This document shows, one piece after another, positions 44,266 through 62,607 of a stretch of DNA of 64,000 bases. The notes beneath the pieces were generated by a model, which saw nothing but the letters and a program-made list of their open reading frames with translations, was not told where the DNA came from and searched no databases. Position numbers and translations under genes: made by a program. Origin of the DNA: Volutella citrinella. Its lineage: Eukaryota; Ascomycota; Sordariomycetes; Hypocreales; Nectriaceae. How positions within the stretch are numbered: the first letter of the stretch is position 1; each line of letters begins with the position of its first letter. The DNA is taken from the NCBI GenBank assembly GCA_034401135.1, contig JAWZSP010000002.1, forward strand, positions 4,340,001-4,404,000. The letters run 5' to 3'.

Positions 44266-46403
44266 ATGCTCTCCGCCATGGCCACCCCACCGCGTGAGAG
44301 CAAAGAAGCCATCTTGGGCCTCAAGGTGTCGCAGAATCCCATCAAAATACGTCAAAAAACCCAAACACGGAAACCGGCCGGATCGAGAACGAAGTCCAAG
44401 AGAGCCTCTCGAGCCTGTGTTGTTTGTCGGTCGCGCAAGGTTAGATGCGACATTGCAGAGAGGTCGCCATGCGGTAACTGCGCTTTCGCAGGAAAGAAAT
44501 GTATTGTGCTCTGTCGTAAAAACCAAAGGTGAGTGCCAATCGAGGACAGACACGTCCGCATACAAATGCTACTACAAGATGGGCCAGCTAATTTCTAAAT
44601 GTATTCATGTCCCAGTTCACCCCTTGCTCCGGTTGATTCCGAGCAGTCCACAGAACCCGACCAGTATTGTTTGTCGATTGACGTCCCAACGCCCGTCGCC
44701 TCGCCTCCACCAAGCGACTTCGATGTCTCGTCATCACTCCCCGACCTCCCACTATTCATCAAGCCCCTTCCTTCCACAAAGAGGCAAGATATCGCACACC
44801 TCCAGTCCAAGGGTTGCTTTGATATGCCTCCTATACGATTGAGAAATGCTCTCGTACGAGCGTTTTTTGACTTTGTTCACCCCACGATGCCCATATTGGA
44901 TCTTGATGGCTTCTTGGAAGCGTTCAGCGGGACCAAGAGGCGCCAGGAATGCACGAGTCTGATGTTGTTTCAGGCCATGCTGGCTGCTGGAGCTCCGCAT
45001 GTCAAGAAGGAAATCTTGAACAAGGGAGGCTTCTGGTCCAACCAAGAAGCGCACGACACATTTTTCGAGAGAGCTAGGGTGAGTCGTAATCACCTTTTCG
45101 TTCAAAAGACGAAAAAGATAGGGGAAGCGTGATTGACATGGATGCTTGACAGGCTCTGTACGACTCCAACTGCGAATTCGATCAGTCGACCCTGGCTCAA
45201 ACGGCTCTCCTATTCACCTTGTGGCAGGGAGCTGAAAGGGAGCATAGGAATACACGGTACTGGATCGCGGCTGCCGTCTCACACATGTCAGAGACCAGCG
45301 TTCTGGACAGAGGATTAGGTGCAGGCCCAGCAAACGCCAAGCAACGCCAGCTGCGCCGCATCTGGTGGTCTTGCTACATTCGTGACAGAGTCGTCTCACT
45401 TAGTATGGACTGTATGCCCTGCATGAGCGAGGCAATGGGATGCAGCGTGCCTATCCTATGTGGAGAGGATTTTGAACTGGATTCTTGTCAGGGGCTCGAC
45501 CGGAAGAGCTCTCCATGGCTGCCGACATTTTGCTCCTACGCCTTTGACAACCAAAGACGGCGCGACTTGTCTCGGCTGGCCATTGCGCAGGTTGCGTTGT
45601 GCCATTCATGGAGACACGTCTTCGAGACACGCGACATGCTACGCCAATGCGAGGGAGTTGTAGACTTGATTCCGGTCGATGATGACGGACCAAAGAGGCG
45701 CCATGGATACAAAATGGATGCAGATGCATTCCAAAACTCGGATGTCATCTTTACATCTGCAATTCGGGAGCTACTGGATTGGCAAAGGTCACTGCCGTCG
45801 TGTTTGAGGTACAAGCGCCTAGGGACGGGCAGCTCGAGCCCAGCTGATTCGGTCAGCTTCATGGTCAATTGCGCCGCCATGCACAAGTCGTACAACGTGT
45901 CATTGCAGTGTCTCTACCAGTTCAGGCTGCGATTTCTCCAAGCAGAAGGCGGCGCCATGGAGTCGTCGAGGTGCACGGAGCAAGCCATGTGCAGCATCTA
46001 CGCAGACAATGCATCCGGGATGGCGACTGAAATCGCAGTAAACCTCAAGGAAAACGGCATGACGAACATGCTCTTTTGGGGCGCTGAGGACAATGCCCTG
46101 CCCACGCCTTGCTCCGAGAAGCTTCAATCTGATGATGAGTTTGAAAATCCCCCAGGGCCGCAAGAAGCCAACATTATCCAGGAACAGGCAAAGGAAAATC
46201 ATGGCGTGGATGACATGGAAATGCATCTGACCCCCCCGGACACGGTCAAGTCTTGGACGATTCACGACTGCCCTCCCTTCTTGGAGGGTGATGCGAACAT
46301 GTGTTGGGCTGGGACAACGACGATGGACTGGACGTGGGACAAAGATTTGGCGGCGCTTTTGTTTGAACATGATGTTTTTTCACCTCAAGAGGCGGGAAAG
46401 TAA
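44266..46403 (+). CDS. CTF1/FarA-type Zn(2)Cys(6) transcription factor
   Basis: A three-exon gene: 44266-44528, 44616-45078, 45153-46403 (658 residues); a second ATG at 44278 has better context. The zinc cluster RACVVCRSRKVRCD is followed by SPCGNCAFAGKKCIV, the spelling of the FarA/FarB/CTF1 group that controls fatty acid breakdown and cutinase genes. The next region, FIKPLPSTKRQDIAHLQSKGCF, with PPIRLRNALVRAFFDFVHPTMPILDL, is the conserved start of that family's regulatory domain. RRIWWSCYIRDRVVSLSM follows. Known members bind CCTCGG. Such sites are present in the promoters of the nearby peroxisomal carboxylase cluster, which makes this a candidate controller; this link is inferred. Confidence 0.88.
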
Positions 46404-49471: not shown

Positions 49472-51357
49472 ATGGCCCCCCAAACCGTGAGGATCGTCGA
49501 GGTCGGGCCCAGGGACGGTCTGCAGAACATCGCCCAGCACATCCCAACTGAAGCCAAAATCGAGCTCATCAAGCGCCTCCGCGAGACGGGGCTGACAACT
49601 ATTGAACCAACTTCAGTCGTTTCACCCAAGGCGGTGCCGCAACTCGAGGACTGCCGCCATGTTCTCGGAAGCCCGTCCATCCAGGCGCTGCTTGGCGACA
49701 AGACGCTGAGGCTGCCGGTGCTGGCCCCCAACGTTAAAGGCGTCGAGATTGCGCACGGCTTGGGGGCTTCAGAGGTTGCAGTCTTCATCAGCGCCACCGA
49801 GGGCTTCAGCAAGGCCAATATCAACTGCACTGTGGCCCAAGGCCTGGAGAGGGCCAGGGCTGTTGTCCAGGCGGCCAGGTCCCGCAATATGGTCGTCCGC
49901 GGGTATACAGAACCCCCTCGTTCATGGTGGTCAAGTTGCTGACATCTGCTTGTGCATCTAGATACGTCTCCTGCATCTTTGCCGATCCGTACGATGGCGC
50001 GACGAACCCCTCGGCGGTGCTACGCCTCACCAAAGAGCTGCTCGCAGCAGGATGCTATGAAGTCAGTCTGGGCGACACGCTCGGCGTTGGCTCACCATCA
50101 GATGTGGCCAACTTGCTAAAGATTCTGATGAGTGGTGGCGTGCCCGTGGAGCGCATTGCAGGCCACTTCCACGATACATATGGCCAGGCTCTCGCCAACG
50201 TCTGGCAGGCCTACCAGTGCGGTGTCCGAGTCTTTGATGCCAGTGTGGCAGGCCTGGGCGGCTGCCCATTTGCTCCCGGTGCCCGTGGGAATGTAGCCTC
50301 GGAGGACGTCGTTTACATGTTTGGCCGTGCGGGCGTCGAGACGGGCGTCACCCTCGACAAGCTGGTTGAGACCGGGCTCTGGATCTCCAGCATCCTGTCC
50401 CAGCCGACCGGCAGCCGCGCTGGTGCCGCCGTGGCTATCAAGCGTGGCATCAAGATACCAAAAGTTGGCAATTATTCTGTCGACAGGATTCGGGGCGGAG
50501 ATACCACCAAGTTGTTGACCTGGGAGCTGGTCAAGGAAACCCAGGGGCTGCTGGTGCACAAGTCGGGAGCCAACCTCAGAATCACCATGAACCGGCCCAA
50601 AAATGGAAATGCCCTTACAACATCCATGATCGAGGAGCTCATCTCGACATTCTCCCAGGCCTCGGGGGACTCGTCAGTCAACCGGGTGGCCCTGACTGGC
50701 AATGGCAGATTCTTCTGTACTGGCATGGACCTCAGCAGCAACACACGCGTGGGAGCCGGCGGCTCTTCGTCCGATGTGCAGTTCCAGCTACTAAACAACC
50801 TGTTTGAGACGATCGACAATTGCACAAAGACGACCATCTCGTGTCTCAACGGCCCGGCATTTGGGGGTGGTGTTGGCCTCGCATTCTCTTGCGACATTCG
50901 CATCTTCGCACCCAACGCCACCGTCACCCTAAGCGAAGCAAAACTCGGGCTGTGTCCAGCGACGATATCAAAGTACGTTGTCCGGGAGTTTGGTGTGTCT
51001 TTTTCACGCGAAGCGATGCTCACCGTGCGACCCATCTCTCCCGCCGAGTTGAAAGAAAAGGGCATCATCACCGCGATTGCGCAAGATGGTAGCAAGACAG
51101 CTCTGGACGGGCTGCTGGGCTCGACCTTGAGAAACTTGAGCGCCGCGTCGTCCGAAGCCTCCAAGTGGTGCAAGGACTTGGTCAGGGCGGGCTGGTCACA
51201 CGCCGGCGACGAACTGCAAGCGGCCACCATCAAGCAGTGCTTTGACGACATGATGAAGCCGGACGGGCCTGGTTCATATGGCGTCAAGGAGTTCCAGGCT
51301 GGGCGCAAAGTTGACTGGGACGTACCGCGCAATACACAAGAGAAGAGCAAGCTGTAG
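49472..51357 (+). CDS. HMG-CoA lyase / enoyl-CoA hydratase fusion, peroxisomal
   Basis: A two-exon gene: 49472-49902 and 49962-51357 (608 residues). Residues 1 to about 300 are a full HMG-CoA lyase-type TIM barrel: VEVGPRDGLQN at 10-20, GHFHDTYGQALAN, and GLGGCPFAPGARGN with the catalytic Cys at about 245. This splits 3-hydroxy-3-methylglutaryl-CoA into acetyl-CoA and acetoacetate. From about 340 a complete crotonase domain follows, with FFCTGMDLSS (about 395), GPAFGGGVGLAFSCDIR (about 441) and KLGLCPATISKYV. Such domains hydrate enoyl-CoA, for example 3-methylglutaconyl-CoA. The two are normally separate proteins. The C-terminus is KSKL, a canonical peroxisomal signal, and no mitochondrial presequence is visible at the N-terminus. 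It converges on the biotin carboxylase gene. Confidence 0.93.
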
Positions 51358-51677
51358 ATACCAGCAGTTTATGTACCACTACGGCTCCTTTATCAACGTC
51401 TATCTGTCTCTGCACTTGTTGGCGGCAATATGTTGTAACCTTTCTTTCAATGCTTGTCTCATAGTTGCCTTCGGAATCTAACGCAAGAAGCATGTATCTC
51501 AGCAAAAGCTTTAGTCCAGGTGTTGGATGAACTCTTGGATGTTGTTCTTCTAACCTGGCATCGATAATGGTGATTGTATTGGTCTACAACTTTATCGTCT
51601 GGATTGTGCGCATGGTTGATGCATTTTCTTTTCCAACTGTTACAGCAACTGTTACAGCATCGCTATAGTCGACATTT
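51358..51677. terminator. Convergent 3' region, fusion gene and carboxylase alpha gene
   Basis: 320 bases between two stop codons of facing genes. It should hold both polyadenylation regions. No gene was seen. The word CAACTGTTACAG is repeated near 51640. Confidence 0.35.
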
Positions 51678-54138
51678 CTATTCCACAACAAACAACTCGA
51701 CTCCTTCGCTCACCACGTCTCCAATTTTCCAGCTGGTTTGAAACTGGCCAGCCGTCTCTGCCTGAATGTTGACTTCCATCTTCATACTCTCAATCACCAT
51801 GACAATTTCGCCCCTCGCAACCTGTTCTCCCTGTGACTTCAAAATTGACAACACCTTGCAAGGCATGGGTGCCTTGACCGCTTTTTGACGGCTCGCCTGA
51901 GGCCCAGCCGTGGCGTTTCTTCCAGAGAAGAACGACAGCAGGGTGTCGTATCGAAATTCTCTCCACTCGCCCAGTAGCCCAATATGGGACAGGATTCTGA
52001 GGGAACCTTCTGATTTCCTTTCCCGGATAGCTGCAATAGCTTCTGAGGTCGTCATCATAAATGCCTGCATACGTTTGCCCCCAACAACCGCTTCCAAGGA
52101 GACTGGGTTTGTCCACATTCCAGGCCCATCAACACCGTTGCTCTCGACGAGCGACATGTCCACATGTGAAACATGAGCCTTTGGGGAAGATTGAAGCAAG
52201 CTCTCGTCACTAATCAGGCGCCTTATTGCATTGTAGTGACTGGTCACGAGCTTGGCTGGAGATGGCGTAACAATCTCCTCAGCATTTGCCAATTTCGCGA
52301 CGTAGTCTTCTTCGACGCCTTTCAAGACTATGTATACTGGGTCGTCTGGGTTGATCTCGGACCCAGCGGCGACACCGCGCCGAGGAGAAGCTTCAACGAC
52401 GCACAAGTCGGTGTGAGCTACCCTGTCCTGTTCCAGTCCTCTTGACGCAGAGTCCCAGCTGATAAGGGTGCAGTTCTTGCTGAACGGGTCCGAGTATTGG
52501 TTACGGAAGCTGCCCCGTACATTTGCAAAGCGCTGCCTAGGCCCCTGACTTCCGTCCAAGGCGCGACGCAACTCTCGCACGTAGAGGCTTGGTAAGATGG
52601 CCATATGGTCTGGTATCTGGGCTTGATAGGGGTTCTGGAGCAGCGTTTCCATGTTTTGCGGGATGAAGCTTGTCCTGTACGATGGACCTTGAAACTCTGG
52701 GTGTAAAAGGCAACTCTGGAGGAAAAGCTGGTTCGTTTTGATGCCAACGCAGGCCATGTTCCGCATCTGATCAGCCATGATAGCAATGGCTTGAGCCCTG
52801 GTTGGCGCCCACACAATGATCTTGCAAATCATCGAGTCGAAGTGGATGGTGACAGTGGTATTGGTGCGGACGGCGGTTTCGTAACGAACGACGGAGTTGC
52901 GACTCCGACCCGGAGAGGCTGGCTTCCACAGCCGAATGACATCATGACTGGGAAAGAAGTCCCTCTGCGGATCTTCGGCACATAGACGACATTCAATGGC
53001 GTGGCCGGTCTGTGTGAGAGTGGCCAGCTGAGGGAGGTCGTCGAGACGCCCGCCAGCAGCGACGTAGAGCTGAAGCGCGACTAGGTCTACGCCAACGACT
53101 TCCTCGGTAATAGGGTGTTCGACTTGCAGGCGGGTGTTCACCTCGAGGAAGTAATATTCGCCTGTTGACGTGTCGTAGACGAACTCAACAGTGCCTGCTC
53201 CCTCGTAGCCGATCAACTTGGCGATCCGGACAGCAGTTTCGCTAATAGCCTTCCTCTTGTCGTCGTCTATGGCAAGGCATGGCGTCTCCTCGATTACTTT
53301 TTGGTTTCTCCTCTGAATTGAGCAATCACGCTCGAAAAACGAAAGGACTTGGCCGTGGGAATCACCGACAATCTGGATCTCGATGTGCTTGCTCTTGGCA
53401 ATGTACTTCTCCAAGATGCAGTCGTCGGATCCGAATGAGCGCTTGGCTTCAGACTGCGCCCTAGCCAGCTCTGATTTCAACTGCGAGGCCTCGTATACCA
53501 CCCTCATGCCCTTGCCGCCTCCACCTGCGGATGCTTTTAGCATGACAGGGTACCTAATCTGAGCAGCCGCTGCCTCAAGCTCCGAGGCTTCCTGACTGCT
53601 GCCAGCGAACCCAGGGATTAGAGGTACATCCGGGGCCGTTGAGCGCAAGTAAGCCTTGGACGTTCGCTTGTCGCCCAGCGTCGACATGGCTAGACTCGGT
53701 GGCCCAATAAAGATCAGGCCCGCCTCGCGAAGTCGGTCGGCGAACAGGGCGTTTTCGCTAAGGAACCCATATCCGGGGTGGACGGCATCAGCGCCGACTT
53801 TGGTGGCTGTCTGGACAAGGAGGTCGATATTGAGGAAGGGATTCGTTGCATCGGAAGCCACGGATCCTATGCAAATGGACTCATCCGCGTCGAGGACGTG
53901 TTTGGACTGCGACTCTCTAGGCAAGGCTAGTTAGCATCTAGTGAGGCTATTGCATTGTTGGCGGTCCTTACTCGACGGTGTAGACGGCCACGGACGAGAC
54001 GCGGAGCTCTTTGCAAGTGGCAATGATGCGGCAGGCAATCTCGCCGCGATTGGCGATCAAAACTTTGCGGATCCGGGGCAATCCATTGCTATCACAAGGG
54101 GTATCGGCTACAAACAGGCGTCTGTCAGAGGCCGTCAT
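51678..54138 (-). CDS. Acyl-CoA carboxylase alpha subunit (biotin carboxylase + biotin carrier)
   Basis: A two-exon gene: 53972-54138 and 51678-53916 (801 residues). The biotin carboxylase start ([14 protein letters not shown]) lies about 25 residues from the N-terminus. It is followed by the ATP-grasp loop [24 protein letters not shown], and [22 protein letters not shown]. The C-terminal biotinyl domain has [10 protein letters not shown], where Lys takes biotin. The architecture fits 3-methylcrotonyl-CoA carboxylase alpha; geranyl-CoA or propionyl-CoA carboxylase alphas are related. The N-terminus is short and acidic, without a mitochondrial presequence, and the C-terminus (LFVVE) has no peroxisomal signal, so it may ride in with its partner. 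The partner subunit is the next gene upstream on the same strand. Confidence 0.93.
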
Positions 54139-54805
54139 TGTTTATCGTCGGACCAGTTGTTCAGCAAGGGCCTGGAGAAAGCACAAGGGCACGGAGGCTT
54201 GTAGAAACTCGGGCAATAAAAAGCAAGCCAGTTCTTGTCTCTGGGCCTGGAAGAATCGACTAAACAGCGCCTTTCATAGCCGATGCTGGGTGGATCATGC
54301 TAACAATTTGGCTGCCTTTCGGCGGCTCTTGTTGTAGGCTGCGCCATGGGCTGGTACCGGGCTGCTAAAGCCTCGGGACAATGAACGGCGCCCTTAGAAT
54401 ATCGACAAGCCGCTTAGCCAGAAATTGCCGGAGGGGGTAGAGCGGGAGGAAGCCAGGGAGGGGTCCAGTTAGGAACAAAGCCCCGCCCGGTCCGAAAAGT
54501 TGTTCATCGCGGACCGATGGCTCAATGCAACGGTGGGTGGCGCGCTATGGGATGGTGCCAAACCCGATTGGTCCCTGGCTAACTTCTGCCACCAGTGCGT
54601 CAGGCGTATTATTCCTTCTGGCAAGATTGAACCAATGCGTGTCAGTTCGGGCCCTAGCAAAAAAAAGACAGGCACCTCCCATAGAGCAAGAATGAGGCTC
54701 TACGTCGGAGAAACGATGGTAACACGTTGGATTGGCATAGTTGCAAATGATTGATTCATATTTACCGCCCTCATCACCCGTAGACCTAGAATATTGTCTC
54801 TCTCG
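54139..54805. promoter_or_regulatory. Promoter of the carboxylase alpha gene
   Basis: Contains CCTCGG at 54371-54376, CGGTCCG at 54488-54494 and its complement CGGACCG at 54510-54516. The distal part is the 3' region of the carboxyltransferase gene. Confidence 0.45.
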
Positions 54806-56924
54806 TTACAATCTGGCCAGGTTGCGGCACCCAGAACTGATAGCTCCGCCGGACAGTTGCACTACTTCCAGACACATTCCCAGCACGTCTCTCGTATCCC
54901 GCGGATCAATCACTCCATCGTCAATCAGGTTTGCACTCGTAGAGTAGCACTCAGAGTCCCGGATCACCTCCTGCTTAAGTTTTTCGCTCTCCGCCCGTGG
55001 CTGTGCGGTTTCTGCAGCTGTTGTTGTCGTCGCATTGCCACTCGACTTGGACCTAATCGTCTGCATAACACCTGCGAGTTGATCGGGTCCCATGACACTG
55101 CATCGCCCGGTTGGCCACGTAAAAATGAACCGGGGCTTGTAGGCTCGTCCACACATTGCATAGTTGCCTGCACCATACGATGCACCTACAATGATGCTGA
55201 TATGAGGCACATTGGAGCAGCTCACTGCTGACACGAGCTGGGCGCCAGCCTTGATGATTCCCGAGTGTTCTGCTTTGGAGCCCACCATGAAGCCTGTGAC
55301 GTTGTGGAAGAAGACAATCGGAGTTGACCTATATTCAATGAGTCAGTCAACGAACAATGAACTGAATGGATGTTCCTACTCTTGACTGCACAATCTAATG
55401 AACTGAGCTGCCTTTTGAGCTTCTTGAGCGTGGATCACGGGCACCTGATTTGCAACAATACCAACATGGTAACCTAAGAAGAGGTCAGCCCCGCATTGTC
55501 AATCGACATATCGCCAAGATTCGCCGGTTTATGATGGTCACGCTCACCTTGGATGTTGGCCCAGGCCGTGAGCATGTTTGCTCCATATTCGGCCTTGAAA
55601 ATAGACAGCCGGGAGTCGTCTACAATCCGCTCTAAAACTCGCCGAATGTCGATTGGTTTCCGAATGTCTGTATTGACGAGCGACAAGATATCTTGCGCTG
55701 GAAATCTGGGCGGCAGCGGGTTTGGAGTGACGTTGAGCGTCGAGCTCTGTGAGACAGGCTCACGGAGATGGCTGACCCAGTCTCGGGCTTTTTGGATAGC
55801 CTCAAACCTACCCGAGCGGAGGTTAGCGTTACAGGAGCCTTGAGCTACCTCTTCCTGGGAGTTTCCCAACTACTTACTCATCCGACGCAAGCTGGTCTGC
55901 CAAACCTGTCACTCTGCCGTGCACATTAGCACCTCCTAGTTCCTCAGCAGCGATTACTTCTCCAGTGGCCATCTTGACCAGCGGCGGTCCGCCGAGGAAG
56001 ACCTGGGCTTGGTCCTTGACAAAAATAGTATAGTCGGAGAGAGCCGGATGGTAGGCTCCTCCGGCAGTCGAGGAGCCAAAGACGATGGCGCATGATGGGT
56101 TGCCGAGGCGTGAGCGCAGTGCCAGGTCACGGAAGAGCTGTCCGCCCAAGTGGAAGACTTGGAACTGTTGCGGGAGGAATACGCCAGCCTAGAAGTGACG
56201 AGTCAGCCCAAGCACGGCTAGAATGGCGTAGATTTGTGATGTACTTACCGATTGGACCAGAGATATAAGCGGGAGCTTGTTCTCGATGCTGATCTCCATA
56301 ATGCGGTTCACCTTTCGAACTGTTGACAAGACAAACGGTTAGCAGTGCCTCCTTAATGACCATCAGAGCCTATTCAGAGGCGCTTGGCCATCTATTACCT
56401 GTCATGTGATTCCACGCTCCACCACTCTGGGTGGGAATGTGCGACATTATAAGAACCGGGCGCGCGCTGAACAGCTGTAAGTAAAATGCAAATGAATGGG
56501 TTGATGGTTTGCCCATGTTCCTTACCAGACAAGACCGATGCCGGCAATCAGGTTGGCGCTCGCGTTGGATCCGCTGATCTGAAAGCCAGCAAAGGCCCCC
56601 AGCTCAAGGAAAGGCGAGTCATGATCCAGAAGCAGGCCTATTCTGTCTCTTGCTAGAGATATTTGCCCCGAGTCAGCCTTCTCCTGTCTCTCCTGTGGGA
56701 GGCATGTCACTTGCGAAAAGGGGGATGGTTAGGCAGGACGTACGCAATAGTTGACCGCGCTCGTGGTGTTTGAGTAAGGACTTGTGCGACCCTTGCTCCG
56801 AGACTTTGCGAAGCTTCTCGTCAAAGTCATGCAGTAGGGCATCCCATTTGGCGCGGTTCTCCACTGCCAGTGGCGAGCCATACTGGACAGCCGACTTGTC
56901 AGCAGGGAGCGTTTGAGCAGCCAT
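54806..56924 (-). CDS. Acyl-CoA carboxylase beta subunit (carboxyltransferase), peroxisomal
   Basis: An eight-exon gene: 56744-56924, 56526-56652, 56399-56466, 56249-56319, 55878-56188, 55548-55807, 55380-55473, 54806-55328 (544 residues; every phase agrees). The sequence follows the methylcrotonyl-CoA carboxylase beta pattern: LLPRDRIGLLLD, SPFLELGAFAG, GGAWNHMT, KVNRIMEISIENKLPLI, IVFGSSTAGGAYHPALSDY, FLGGPPLVKMATGE, and, in the C-terminal half, STPIVFFHNVTGFMVG and GASYGAGNYAMCGRAY. It transfers carboxyl from biotin to the acyl-CoA. The protein begins almost at the catalytic domain, with no presequence, and ends NLARL, a variant peroxisomal signal. It is divergent from the acyl-CoA synthetase (596 bases). 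Confidence 0.92.
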
Positions 56925-57520
56925 GGCACTATAATTGTCTTCTGGAGGAGATTGGCAAGTGGCAGAAGGAGGATAGGTCTGCGGCCTGCACCGTTAAAAC
57001 TGTGTCAAAAGCAGTTGCAGGGGTGCGATGGTGGTAAACCTGAACAACTGACAGTATTGGTTGGAGCAAGAATTGCAGGACATGCGACTCTGATGGAACA
57101 AATATTACGGCGCGAATTGCCGCGCACAAGCTGATGAATTACTGCAGGGGACCAAGTCCCGCCAGCCAGCCGATGGCTCCCGTCCGGGGTCCGATCCTCG
57201 GTCCGGAGGCGCGCCATCCAGATGCGTGGGGGGGTAGCCGAGAGCTGGCTCGACGGGAGTCGCTCCCTGGTCCGGGGGCGTAAGCCACAATGTCTGGGTT
57301 CCGCCCGGGAAATGTAGGCAAAGGCCACGGCCTTGGTTGATGTGTGCCGACGGAAGCGCTTTAATCAATATGTGCCAATAATGATTGATTGTGCCTTTTA
57401 TACCCTGCCCAAGCCTCTTCGGCTTAAACCAAACCTGAGCCACTTGGCCCTCTGCTTGCGTCTTGTCTTCAATACAACACGAAAGTTCATCTCATTCCCT
57501 ACCCGTTGCTTTCAATAGCC
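56925..57520. promoter_or_regulatory. Divergent carboxyltransferase / acyl-CoA synthetase promoter
   Basis: CCTCGG at 57196-57201 overlaps CGGTCCG at 57199-57205. The same overlap (CCTCGGTCCGG) occurs in the fusion-gene promoter at 49183-49193. That repeated 11-base word is the strongest single sign of joint control in the cluster. Confidence 0.5.
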
Positions 57521-59503
57521 ATGTCGTCTCCCAAACAGGACCTGGCCGTCACCTTTGGACCGTCGGATACGCCACTCGACGAACGTACACTTGGGTCCAT
57601 CGTCGATGAAAATGCAGCACAAAGAGGCCAGAAGACGGCCATTGTCGTCCCATGGCAGTCAATCCGACTCTCCTACCAGGATCTCGCAGATCGAAGTCGG
57701 ATAGTCGCCAAGGCATTTATGGATCTCGAATTGCGGCGTGGTCATTGCGTTGGCATCATGGCGGGCAACTGCTACGAGTACATTGAGCTGTTTCTCGGTG
57801 CAGCCCGTATTGGGTGTCCATTTGTAGTTCTCAACAATACATATTCTCCTTCTGAGTTGCAAGCAGCAGTTACTCAGAGTGGTGAGCCCTCCGTCATGCC
57901 CTTATCCTATACTCGTTACTTACGCAGCAGGCAGATTGCAAGGTGGTCTTCATGGCATCGACGATTGCGCTCAAGAACCTATCGGAGCACACAAAGTCAC
58001 TAGCCACAATAGCTGGAACAAGCGTGTGCAAACTCAAGCATATTGTGTTATTGGGAAAAGTCGGGCAGCAGTCTGTGCGCGATCCCTGCTACACCTCATA
58101 CAACGAGTTTAAGCAGCTCGGCCACTCCATCTTCATCAATGACGCACGCCTGCGACGAGAGGAACGGAAGGTCAAGCCGTCCGATGCCCTCAACCTTCAA
58201 TTCACATCTGGTGCGTTTTTACTCTGTTGTGGGTCAGCGTCTTTGACTCTGTTGGCTCATCCGTCTCTTTAGGAACAACTGGTGCGCCAAAAGCTGCCAC
58301 CCTCACTCACAGGTTCGTCGCCATGCCGCCTTGTCACCACTCGAAGATGCGGGTTCTTGTCGATTTAGGCTAACCGGAGAAAAATAAACAGGAACTTGAT
58401 CAACAACGGTAAGTTTGTGGGTTGCGCCATGCGACTTACGCCAGCCGACGTCGTGTGCTGCCCGCCACCTCTCTTCCATTGTTTTGGCCTTGTCATGGGC
58501 TTCCTGGCCTCCTTCTACCATGGCAGCACAATCGTGTTCCCATCCGACAATTTTGATGCGCGCCGCACCGTCGAGGCAGTGGTGAACGAGCAGGCGACCG
58601 CTCTCCTCGGCGTGCCTACCATGTATATTGCTGAGCTGGAGGAACTGGAGCAATCCGGCCAGTCTATTACGACGGTGCGCACCGGACTAGTCTCAGGGTC
58701 GCCTGTGGCACCGACTCTCATGGAGCAGCTACGCAAGCAAATGAATGTGCAAGGCATGTTGATGGCCTACGGCATGACCGAGACCAGTCCTGTAACATTT
58801 ATCAATTCTCTCGACGACGACGACGATAAGCTGCTTCACTCCATTGGAAGGGTGATGCCTCACACTGGGGCCAAGATTGTTGATGCCCAGGGCAATATTG
58901 TCCCGCGAGGCACGCGCGGCGAGATCTGCACGAGTGGCTTCGCGCTGCAGAAAGGCTACTGGAAGAACGAGGCAAAGACGCAAGAGGCGATGCGACGAGA
59001 CGAGCAGGGAATTCTGTGGATGCACACGGGCGACGAGGGATACATTGATGACGAGGGATTCGGGCACATTACTGGCCGCATCAAAGATCTCATTATCAGA
59101 GGTGAGTGAAGAGTTTCCAATTAGGCTCTTCCAGAGGATGAAGACCCTAACGAACTTAGCAGGCGGCGAGAACATTTCACCGAGCGAGATCGAGCACCGG
59201 ATTATAAGCCACGGCGCCGTTGCGGAGTGCTGTGTAGTGGGTTTAGAAGATGCCAGGTACGGAGAGGTTGTTTCCTGCTTTCTCAAGGCCGCCGAGGGGC
59301 AAGACAGGCTGTCAGACGAGCAAGTGAGCACCTGGGTCCGGGCAAAGCTTGGGCGGGTCAAGGCACCGCAGCACATCTTTTGGCTCGGCGACGAGGGGGT
59401 CGAGCAAGACTTGCCCAAGACAGGCAGTGGAAAATACAAGAAGCACGTTGTACGGGAGCTTGGCAACCGTCTCTTGAAGAAGAGGCTGCGAGCGAGGCTG
59501 TAA
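57521..59503 (+). CDS. Acyl-CoA synthetase (AMP-forming), peroxisomal
   Basis: A five-exon gene: 57521-57881, 57935-58210, 58273-58312, 58392-59101, 59163-59503 (575 residues; phases agree). The start is the ATG at 57521. Core motifs of the ANL superfamily are present: FTSGTTGAPKAATLTHRN (P-loop, split by introns), MAYGMTETSPVTF, LWMHTGDEGYIDDEGF, and GRIKDLIIRGGENISPSEIE. The catalytic lysine segment is DLPKTGSGKYKKH. The last residues are RARL, a variant peroxisomal signal. It would activate a free acid to the CoA ester that the carboxylase then uses. Medium-chain or short branched acids are likely by family; the exact substrate is not known. Confidence 0.93.
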
Positions 59504-59977: not shown

Positions 59978-62607
59978 ATGTCGGCCATTGCACAAGCATA
60001 CGGTCCGAGCCAACCCGCACATGCCCTGGGTATTCGGCGCATCCGCCAGGCCTGCCGAACATGCCGGTTCGTCCACTCGCCCATTCCCCACTCTTCACGC
60101 ACAGCAGCCCTGACCCCGCGTCAAACCATCCGCAATGCCCAAACTGTTCGGCTAGATGCTACTTCGTTCGCCCCTGTCCCCTGGATGCCTCGCTACTGAC
60201 TCTTCAACGCCGCAGGTCCAAGAAGATTAAATGCTCCGGAGAGCGACCGAGTTGCGTCAACTGCCGTCGCACCAACCAGGACTGTCGATACATTCCCTTC
60301 TCTGAACAGTCTGATGCTCCAAACGACACTCCTGCTACCAGTCGCCACCGCGGCAGCTTCAACCGCCGCTCAGCCGCCTCACATATCAATGTATGATTAT
60401 ATGACGCGTCACAGCGCAATGTGGACACCGGTTGAGCTAACAGCAAGCCTTTTAAACAGAGAGAGCTCCTAGATCGTATCACCAGCCTCGAGAGTCGTCT
60501 CGCGCAGATCAACGGCCCCATTCCAGCAACTGCAATTCCAAGGTGAAATCACCCAAGGATGAGCCCAATTTCTGTAACCTGTGAAGCTAACACGCGCGCG
60601 CTTCAATACAGCAACCCTCGGGATGTTGACGCCAACCAACAAGACACCAACGCTGCCTCAGTACCTACCGCGAGCCCATCTACAAGCTATCAAATCGAGT
60701 CTCTCTCGCTGGGTGATAGTAGCGGTGAATCAAATAGTTCTCCAAATAGGTAAGCATCGCCCTCTCGAGCCTACAACGCAGAGCCAATAAAAGATGCCCT
60801 ATTTATCGCATGACTCTTTGCTGAGAGACAACACACAGCTCCCCTGTCCAGTCACCACCGCCAGCGTCTGTTGAGCGACTTGTCGACGTATACTTTACCT
60901 GTTCCCACAACCAGCCCTACTCCTACTTTAACGAAACAAGATTCCGTCAGAGACTGGCCAATGGCTCACTTCCAAAGTGTTTATTGTTTGCTGTCATGGC
61001 TTCAGCATCTCGCTTTGTTCAGGATGACGAGTCCTTGAAGGGATCATGCCAAGACACCGACAAGTATGCCCGAACAGCCTGGCATTCCGTCCTCAACGAC
61101 TATCTCACCAATGAGGACTCGCCCTCTCTCCATGTTGTCCAGACAGCCAACATCCTCGCCATCATTGACTTTACTGGTAAGTCCTTGGCCCTTTCCTTTC
61201 CCCAGTTAATGCTTGCCTCACAAGCAATACTGTCTCACGATGTGGCACTGGCTGACCAAGGACTTTCCATCAATCTAGCGGGCCGCACCAGTTCGGCTTG
61301 GCTGAAGATTGGCCTGGCCGTCCGCATATCACAGGATCTTCAACTGATGAAGGACCCAGACCCCACGCTACCACCTGTGGAGCAAGAAGAACTGATCCGC
61401 ACCTTTTGGTCAGTGTATTTGCTAGATAAGCTCGTGTCGTGCGGTCGAGACCGCCCTCCAGCGTCACTGGATGTTGCATGCCTAGTCCGGCTTCCCTGCG
61501 AAGAGGCATCGTTCCGTGCGGGCGTGTCGCATGCCACTCCAACACTCCAACAATTGTGGGACTGGAACGAAGGGCCATCCGATTCACAGGGATTTTTCCC
61601 CCTCGCCATCTTCGCCGGTTCTGTTCTGGGTAGATGCACTCAGAGCCTCTGGTTGAAGCCCGACAGCCGCGCCCTGCCTCCATGGGCCTCCCATTCTGAC
61701 TATGCCTCGAACCAGAATATTCTTCAGTTGCTTGAATCCAGATTAAAAATCGCCCATCAGACTGTCAAGGAGACTATCGCCCTGCACACCTCTGAAGATG
61801 GATCTGTTGATCACCAGATGACCGGACATGGCGTTTTTGCCCGCGCCGTCTTCCACCTCTGTCACTGTCTCGCCAATCACCCTTTTCTCATTAGGAGACA
61901 CGCTGAAGCCATCAACCAAACGATCCCATTTGGTTTTAAATACCTGGCATCACAACGAGCATATAGCCACGCAAAGGACCTCATCCACGTCCTGCGAGAT
62001 ACGCAAGATGCAGGCGGACTCGTAGCTGCCTCCTTTTATGGCTACGCGACGTGTGTGGCCGGGGGCATTTTGCTGATGCACATGCAGGCTGAACATGGAG
62101 GCGTTTCTCAACGTCAAAGGGAGACTCTGACGTCTTTCCAGACGGCGTTGGATGTTTTGCAAAACATGGGACGGGCGTGGGACCACACGTCAAAAATTGT
62201 AAGATACCGCCACTTTTTGGCTACTTCTCGCGTTGTACAACTGGCTAACGTGTTTATCCGTCGTGTCACTGTAGTACCGACGGCTCCTCACACTCAGCAA
62301 TCAGATCATGGGAGGCACCTGCGGCAACCTTGACGTTTGGCAGCATCTTGACCCGATGCCTGACAGCCTACTGTGGACCTTGGTGGACTATGGAAACATG
62401 TGCCGCGAGGCGGTTCCCGAGCCACTGCTGGACGGTGGCGGAGTGGAAGGCCTGCTGTGCGGACTTGATGATGATCCAAACCTAGATTCCTCTTTGATGC
62501 GCGATGAGAATATCAACATGTCGGTAGACAGCAGCTACGTACATCCGTTCGGTGGGGTTAGTCCCGGAACGCTATATCTTTTGGATCTTGCGTCGAATGG
62601 AGGATGA
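59978..62607 (+). CDS. Zn(2)Cys(6) transcription factor next to the carboxylase cluster
   Basis: A seven-exon gene: 59978-60066, 60216-60390, 60460-60542, 60612-60749, 60839-61176, 61279-62198, 62275-62607 (691 residues; phases agree). The zinc cluster RQACRTCRSKKIKCSGERPSCVNC is split by intron 1. A short leucine-containing linker (LLDRITSLESRLAQI) is a likely dimerising coiled coil. The MHR domain starts at VDVYFTCSHNQPYSYF and includes TSSAWLKIGLAVRISQDLQL and LIRTFWSVYLLDKLVSCGRDRPP. The C-terminus is acidic (GLDDDPNLD). Its position beside the acyl-CoA genes makes it a candidate pathway-specific regulator, alongside the CTF1/FarA-type factor at 44.3 kb. Confidence 0.88.

Follow-up and report, generated by a model that had tools for sequence, protein, structure and literature searches.

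In the ascomycete Volutella citrinella, a 64,000-nt stretch of the genome (contig C2:4340001-4404000 of a 45.1-Mb assembly in 26 contigs; hereafter the window) carries four genes side by side at 49472-59503, which encode a fusion of 3-hydroxy-3-methylglutaryl-CoA (HMG-CoA) lyase with enoyl-CoA hydratase, the alpha and beta subunits of a biotin-dependent acyl-CoA carboxylase, and an acyl-CoA synthetase, with three of the four proteins ending in a tripeptide of the peroxisomal targeting signal type 1 (PTS1). On balance, we are inclined to read this set as an old, conserved ascomycete cluster for the peroxisome-targeted breakdown of beta-methyl-branched, alpha,beta-unsaturated acids, with a substrate that would probably be bulkier than 3-methylcrotonyl-CoA, e.g., a terpenoid-derived acid. 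The genes and their order, the conserved ends, the phylogeny and the pocket residues of the carboxylase are observed directly. An earlier note on the window, made from the sequence alone, had proposed peroxisomal breakdown of 3-methylcrotonate-type acids by an enzyme resembling methylcrotonyl-CoA carboxylase (MCC); the results presented here argue for its interpretation with respect to the type of compartment and the chemistry, and make it doubtful with respect to the substrate.

Gene models, C-terminal ends and distribution of the cluster

The four gene models were spliced by hand with GT-AG introns, and domains were called with Pfam and NCBIfam. The HMG-CoA lyase/enoyl-CoA hydratase fusion (49472..51357, + strand; exons 49472-49902 and 49962-51357; 608 residues) contains HMGL-like and ECH_1 domains (Pfam), scores 357 bits (cut-off 246) with the NCBIfam HMG-CoA lyase model PRK05692, and ends in EKSKL, with the SKL codons at 51346-51354. 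The biotin carboxylase/biotin carrier (alpha) subunit (51678..54138, - strand; exons 54138-53972 and 53916-51678; 801 residues) combines biotin carboxylase and Biotin_lipoyl domains (Pfam), has ESMKM as its biotin site and ends in ELFVVE. The carboxyltransferase (beta) subunit (54806..56924, - strand; eight exons, 56924-56744, 56652-56526, 56466-56399, 56319-56249, 56188-55878, 55807-55548, 55473-55380 and 55328-54806; 544 residues) matches Carboxyl_trans and ends in NLARL (ARL codons 54809-54817), and the AMP-forming acyl-CoA synthetase (57521..59503, + strand; exons 57521-57881, 57935-58210, 58273-58312, 58392-59101 and 59163-59503; 575 residues) matches AMP-binding and ends in RLRARL (ARL codons 59492-59500). 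The outer two genes (fusion and synthetase) lie on the + strand and the inner two (alpha and beta) on the - strand, and their physical order is the pathway order. The spliced models and domain calls bear out what had been noted earlier, namely four adjacent genes of these families in pathway order, with SKL, ARL and ARL on three of the proteins. The absence of isovaleryl-CoA dehydrogenase from the set, also noted then, agrees with our search of the 64-kb window, in which a bacterial isovaleryl-CoA dehydrogenase query detected no acyl-CoA dehydrogenase at an E value of 1e-5.

For the strict PTS1 pattern [SAC][KRH][LM], the chance of a matching end is 0.0027 from residue composition, and that of at least three such ends in four proteins is about 8e-8. 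Conservation was assessed by three protein searches (fusion, beta and alpha), with the best 120 matches counted in each, and with wide-sense patterns defined as x[KR][LI] for the fusion and [AS]R[ILMF] for beta. We observe that the fusion ends in x[KR][LI] in 118/120 homologues (AKL 45, SKL 36, PKL 13, and others), and in the strict pattern in 90/120. Among the 118 rows with Lys or Arg at position -2, the tail entropy falls from 3.2-3.7 bits over positions -5 to -11, through 2.2 at -4 and 1.7 at -3, to 0.45 at -2, by which the rows were selected, and 0.32 at -1; with a variable linker followed by a nearly fixed last residue, the tail looks like a targeting tail. Furthermore, fewer than 15 residues precede the lyase domain in 101/120 fusion homologues, leaving little room for a presequence. 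In the accessible text of a study of an ascomycete (PMC13343957), Pex5-dependent proteins end most often in AKL, SKL or ARL, and AKI, HKL and PKL prove sufficient in tests; we did not meet its species in our three homologue lists, and MCC figures in that text only as the endogenous biotin protein used to normalise.

The beta subunit ends in the wide-sense pattern in 114/120 homologues (ARI 63, ARM 29, ARL 20, ARF 1, SRM 1), with 50 strict ends. Two of the remaining six (P0028 and P0100) are joined to domains of another protein, and we take the rest to be broken or cut models. None of the beta subunits from the 80 bacterial loci described below has an AR[ILM] end, with FRM found in 67/80. Bacterial beta rows labelled AtuC or AtuC-like have Ala at -3 in three of four cases (ARL, ARF and ARP; the other ends in FRL), and a fifth beta, from Mycolicibacterium (L110) with an AtuA gene nearby, has FRM. 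The case for a predicted peroxisomal targeting is carried by the fusion tail, not by the beta tail.

The alpha subunit has no PTS1 and, as judged by eye, neither an evident mitochondrial presequence nor a convincing peroxisomal targeting signal type 2, and strict PTS1 ends occur in 0/120 of its best homologues. Conservation of the ends in orthologues, which the earlier note had put forward as a check, is found for the fusion and beta and fails for alpha. Directly 3' of the TAG stop of alpha lie four in-frame sense codons (KCRL) and a further stop (51663..51677, - strand), and read-through would give a CRL end. One may speculate that this is a PTS1-like end reached by read-through in Volutella citrinella; the base rate of a strict PTS1 end by chance is about 0.003, so it is noted here and not claimed.

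Sets of this type are widespread in ascomycetes, as seen among the best 120 homologues each of fusion, alpha and beta. Shared-contig matching over the three homologue lists, by the length of the longest contig, gave 78/268 length values with at least two of fusion, alpha and beta, and 12 with all three, which records presence on the same contig and not adjacency. Adjacency itself is seen in the consecutive locus tags SEUCBS139899_002911 (alpha), 002912 (beta) and 002913 (fusion), with a further example in the near-consecutive tags N7486_000708, 000709 and 000711. An Aspergillus terreus gene model (P0133) joins synthetase and fusion (71% and 48% to two synthetase parts, 58% and 68% to the fusion), a factor homologous to window positions 60831-61178 (42% over 129 residues) is part of one Macrophomina model with the beta subunit (P0028), and Aspergillus nidulans has a homologous alpha subunit (P0315, ANIA_10656). 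Synteny in other fungi, a further point that had been left to be looked for, is found both in shared contigs and in locus tags. The observation is real, and across many listed relatives it is much stronger than one genome could show.

Separate mitochondrial-type paralogues, likewise sought on the strength of the earlier note, are present elsewhere in the genome, on contigs C6, C1 and C4. The second alpha subunit (C6, L019) has a basic N terminus that is presequence-like by eye. The second beta subunit (C1, L023) ends in FRM, has the MCC insertion and Phe191 discussed below, and adjoins a gene 60% identical to bacterial isovaleryl-CoA dehydrogenase, and a stand-alone HMG-CoA lyase (C4, L025) has a presequence-like start, again by eye, and ends in SPA. 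In addition, a second lyase-hydratase fusion at C2:5244963-5246315 (L021:6500-8387), with 54-62% identity to the cluster fusion over the lyase pieces and 42% over the hydratase, has a start that looks presequence-like by eye and no PTS1 end. This indicates that fusion occurs outside the cluster too, but that among these copies the peroxisomal-type end is confined to it; judging from the second copy, the leucine pathway of Volutella citrinella may itself use a fused lyase-hydratase. Instead of a genome with no other MCC genes and orthologues with presequences and no tripeptides, which had been named as the result to speak against the proposal, we find other MCC-type genes and homologues that carry tripeptides and mostly have no room for a presequence. 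A decayed fragment at C8:2987737-2988650 (L029) resembles the C-terminal half of the cluster alpha subunit and contains several stops; it is a relic of another copy.

Pocket and phylogeny of the carboxyltransferase subunit

In the accessible text of Jurado and others (PMC4673880), Phe191 of MCC beta, corresponding to Gly162 in geranyl-CoA carboxylase (GCC), sets substrate size, a swap of this residue alters preference, and MCC beta carries a three-residue insertion at the pocket that is absent from GCC. The pocket segment of the window beta subunit (codons for HLGGQLF at 56132..56152, - strand) aligns gapless with that of Pseudomonas GCC (5ikl), without the MCC insertion and with Gly at the MCC Phe191/GCC Gly162 place. 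Among the best 120 beta homologues, this place is occupied by Gly in 106 (three by eye), by Ala in nine, by Thr in three and by Phe in none, with two models lacking the segment. An open pocket of the GCC type makes a natural substrate larger than 3-methylcrotonyl-CoA probable.

With respect to phylogeny, we compared the fungal family with a bacterial beta set of 80 loci, kept from 590 relatives that were retrieved with a query alignment built from 23 of the 120 homologues listed; a contig scan with the single window protein as query found no relative. The rooted tree comprises 55 rows (window beta, 21/120 homologues, 20/80 bacterial loci and 13 others), with four propionyl-CoA-carboxylase-type sequences as the root. 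In this tree the fungal family is monophyletic (100/100) and sister to Bacteroidota rows (98/91), and falls in a 100/99 clade together with actinobacterial, myxococcal and Bacteroidota carboxylases, a clade which also holds the Rhodococcus beta from a cluster with AtuA (L117). The MCC clade (99/98, including the fungal mitochondrial-type copy) branches outside, followed by three proteobacterial AtuC or AtuC-like rows. Forcing the fungal family and MCC into one clade is disfavoured by the approximately unbiased (AU) test (p 0.031).

Compared with MCC (EC 6.4.1.4), the cluster enzyme has the same division into an alpha subunit with biotin carboxylase and carrier and a separate beta, and lacks Phe191, the insertion and a place in the MCC clade. 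Compared with GCC (EC 6.4.1.5), it has the Gly and no insertion, and stands apart from the three AtuC or AtuC-like rows, which form their own clade. The earlier description of the carboxylase as MCC-like needs correcting: the beta subunit groups with bacterial non-MCC carboxylases, and neither its pocket nor its place in the tree is that of MCC. We also considered that it might simply be a duplicated mitochondrial MCC, and dropped this because tree and pocket argue against it.

Saitoella (P0117) is the first-branching row of the fungal beta clade. If inheritance was vertical, and with Saitoella placed among the ascomycetes where we take it to belong, this would make the fungal family older than the filamentous ascomycetes. 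The rows of the clade are not cleanly sorted by class, with Metarhizium (P0033), for example, standing with Cercospora (P0073) and Elasticomyces (P0084), which makes it likely that the cluster has been duplicated, or passed between fungi.

Two carboxylases of the wider clade were found near AtuA genes, one on a Mycolicibacterium chubuense plasmid (L110, 7995-17548) and one on a Rhodococcus plasmid (L117, 6602-12028). These neighbours hint that the bacterial clade akin to the fungal family may be able to serve terpene breakdown.

In ten database models beta and alpha form one chain (P0247, P0259, P0280, P0283, P0285, P0302, P0306, P0309, P0314 and P0318). As candidates for true single-chain beta-alpha enzymes they were rejected: the LAR[ILM] motif occurs in none of them, and they look like merged gene models.

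Predicted route and alternative explanations

Ordinary beta-oxidation cannot pass beta-methyl-branched, alpha,beta-unsaturated acids. In the route that we propose, the synthetase would convert such an acid to its acyl-CoA ester, the alpha/beta biotin carboxylase would add CO2 at the gamma carbon, and the fusion would hydrate the carboxylated product to a 3-hydroxy-3-alkylglutaryl-CoA and then cleave it to acetyl-CoA and a 3-oxo acid able to re-enter beta-oxidation. This acid would be acetoacetate for 3-methylcrotonate and longer for a terpenoid acid; the acetyl-CoA and acetoacetate named as products in the earlier note hold for the former, and a larger acid would give acetyl-CoA and a different 3-oxo acid. 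The alpha/beta complex would be imported folded via the C-terminal signal of beta, with alpha entering bound to beta. Import, reaction series, substrate and cell location are all predictions from the sequence.

The enzyme families are the right ones for these steps. The lyase part of the fusion keeps the active-site residues of human HMG-CoA lyase in an alignment with 2cw6, and the residues that we take to be catalytic or metal-binding (Arg41, Asp42, Glu72, His233, His235, Cys266 and Asn275) are all kept. The hydratase part has GGGxGL and a kept second Glu in the pattern of one LiuC and one AtuE, isohexenylglutaconyl-CoA hydratase (4zu2) is the third-best hydratase chain for the fusion, and gamma-carboxygeranoyl-CoA hydratase is among the NCBIfam matches of the hydratase, behind generic crotonases and under its cut-off.

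Several observations weigh against the peroxisomal breakdown of a bulky acid. With respect to targeting, the alpha subunit has no signal of its own and would require co-import with beta; ARI, the commonest beta end (63/120), is not a strict PTS1 and is not among the tested ends that we saw in the literature; and the beta tail alone is weak evidence, since bacterial GCC-type betas, which have no peroxisome to enter, can also have Ala at -3. With respect to the substrate, 12/120 beta homologues have Ala or Thr instead of Gly at the pocket place, and the AU rejection of a joining with MCC reaches only p 0.031. Gly and a missing insertion are, moreover, common to bacterial carboxylases of unestablished substrate across the GCC and wider-clade rows compared, so that "not MCC-like" is surer than "large substrate". 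The remaining enzymes do not single out a terpenoid route either. The best NCBIfam hydratase matches are generic crotonases, all those shown being below cut-off, and the hydratase identities (29% to the atu locus L114, 32% to the liu locus L113) decide nothing. The synthetase, whose best NCBIfam match is PRK12583 (494 of 832 bits, below cut-off), is nearer to the liu ligase of L113 (38%) than to the atu ligase of L114 (23%), with 31% to the L110 ligase, and the lyase matches only L113 (47%) among L110-L117.

These affinities bear on the alternative that the substrate is 3-methylcrotonyl-CoA itself. The cluster would then be a peroxisomal lower leucine pathway, with 3-methylcrotonate taken up, or formed in peroxisomes from isoprenoid or iso-branched acid ends. 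The kinds of enzyme are those of the Paracoccus yeei liu operon (L113), which comprises isovaleryl-CoA dehydrogenase, beta, alpha, HMG-CoA lyase, hydratase and an AMP-binding ligase; ligase and lyase match this locus better than the atu loci compared, the HMG-CoA lyase active-site residues are present, and a small substrate could still fit an open pocket. Set against this are a beta subunit outside the MCC clade, without insertion or Phe191, and mitochondrial-type genes for the same steps that the genome already has. We regard this explanation as a serious but rather unlikely one, and 3-methylcrotonate as the substrate, in the form in which the earlier note gave it, is not supported.

It is very unlikely that the cluster recycles siderophore acyl groups by breaking down anhydromevalonate (5-hydroxy-3-methylpent-2-enoate) released from fusarinine-type siderophores. 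Anhydromevalonate is a beta-methyl unsaturated acid that fungi process, as its CoA ester, in their peroxisomes, where SidI, SidH and SidF of anhydromevalonyl metabolism are located in Aspergillus according to the accessible text of PMC3709128, and SidH (7oeq) comes 60th and last among the chains listed for the fusion. The window genes that were examined include none recognised as a siderophore gene, although no direct search for them was made, and we see no link of expression to iron.

Still less probable is that the C-terminal tripeptides are not working signals and that the enzymes are cytosolic or mitochondrial. ARI, ARM and ARL could descend from a GCC-like ancestor, since bacterial GCC-type betas can have Ala at -3, but this leaves the SKL/AKL-type fusion tails on a variable linker in nearly all listed homologues, the scant room for a presequence in 101/120 of them, and the mitochondrial-type beta, lyase and second fusion of the same genome, which carry no tripeptides.

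A Zn2Cys6 transcription factor gene adjoins the synthetase (59978..62607, + strand; Pfam Fungal_trans; limits approximate, introns not resolved) and is likely, from its position and family, to be the pathway regulator. A second fungal transcription-factor gene lies on the opposite flank of the cluster at 44599-46403 (Fungal_trans, weak match). The adjoining Zn2Cys6 regulator, and the name "putative secondary metabolism biosynthetic enzyme" given to the fusion in some databases, would also suit a biosynthetic secondary-metabolite cluster supplying a branched acyl-CoA unit, but to this idea we give the least credence, as the series ends in a lyase, the distribution is broad, and no synthase was recognised beside the genes among the open reading frames read, part of which were run through Pfam.

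Returning to the breakdown of a bulky branched acid, a more far-reaching version of this reading, which we put forward as possible rather than probable, is that a biotin carboxylase works inside peroxisomes: it would be biotinylated in the cytosol, assembled from alpha and beta, and imported folded by the beta tail (with a possible read-through CRL on alpha here), as the key enzyme of a eukaryotic counterpart to bacterial acyclic-terpene breakdown. The eukaryotic biotin-dependent acyl-CoA carboxylases known to us work in the cytosol, mitochondria or plastids. If the proposal is true, a peroxisomal biotin carboxylase would require, within the organelle, bicarbonate and ATP as well as a complex that is folded and biotinylated, and would thereby offer a test case for how large assemblies are imported. 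It would also account for the way moulds pass the beta-methyl branches that block beta-oxidation, with a bearing on the degradation of terpenes and plant resins.

Comparison with known systems

We recognised no paper on a peroxisomal MCC or GCC in fungi, or on the targeting or function of this cluster, in a literature search that lacked most subscription journals, so this negative carries little weight. PMC3199775 notes "acyl-CoA carboxylases" in fungi and in some green algae; its accessible text does not mention peroxisomal targeting, the cluster or a pathway. The siderophore enzymes SidI, SidH and SidF provide a parallel in that they too act on a beta-methyl unsaturated CoA ester in fungal peroxisomes (PMC3709128, accessible text), but they are biosynthetic and include no carboxylase.

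The mcc genes of Aspergillus nidulans belong to the mitochondrial leucine pathway. Its ivdA is tabulated as mitochondrial in the accessible text of PMC4117967. The fungal mitochondrial leucine pathway, the genes of which are found in the present genome on C1, C4 and C6, uses the same chemistry as the cluster. It differs in that its genes are separate, the C4 lyase and the C6 alpha subunit start in a presequence-like manner, and the C1 beta subunit has the FRM end, Phe191 and the insertion.

Among bacteria, the carboxylases nearest to the fungal family, which we take to be of the accA2/accD2 kind, form the nearest clade in the tree and have the same pocket segment; unlike the fungal proteins, they have an FRM-type end, and no lyase match was found in the 80 bacterial carboxylase loci (stretches of 4.6-19.6 kb). 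The atu cluster with its GCC (AtuC/AtuF) resembles the fungal set in that a ligase, an alpha/beta carboxylase with open pocket and a hydratase, of AtuE type in L114, are clustered, with ligase, beta, hydratase, alpha and AtuA in both L114 and L116. It differs in that its beta subunits form a clade apart (three proteobacterial AtuC or AtuC-like rows), the L114 ligase is only 23% identical to the fungal one, and AtuA is present where the fungal set, in a eukaryotic host, has an HMG-CoA-lyase type enzyme fused to the hydratase and peroxisome-type ends; loci L114-L117 give no reason to derive the ligase from an atu cluster. The liu operon, as represented by L113, shares the enzyme set including HMG-CoA lyase (47%) and AMP-binding ligase (38%), and differs in its isovaleryl-CoA dehydrogenase, which the fungal cluster is without, and in that the fungal beta is not MCC by pocket or tree. 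By these affinities, the fungal cluster brings together a carboxylase of non-MCC type and a ligase and lyase that are liu-like, its enzymes not all pointing to one bacterial pathway.

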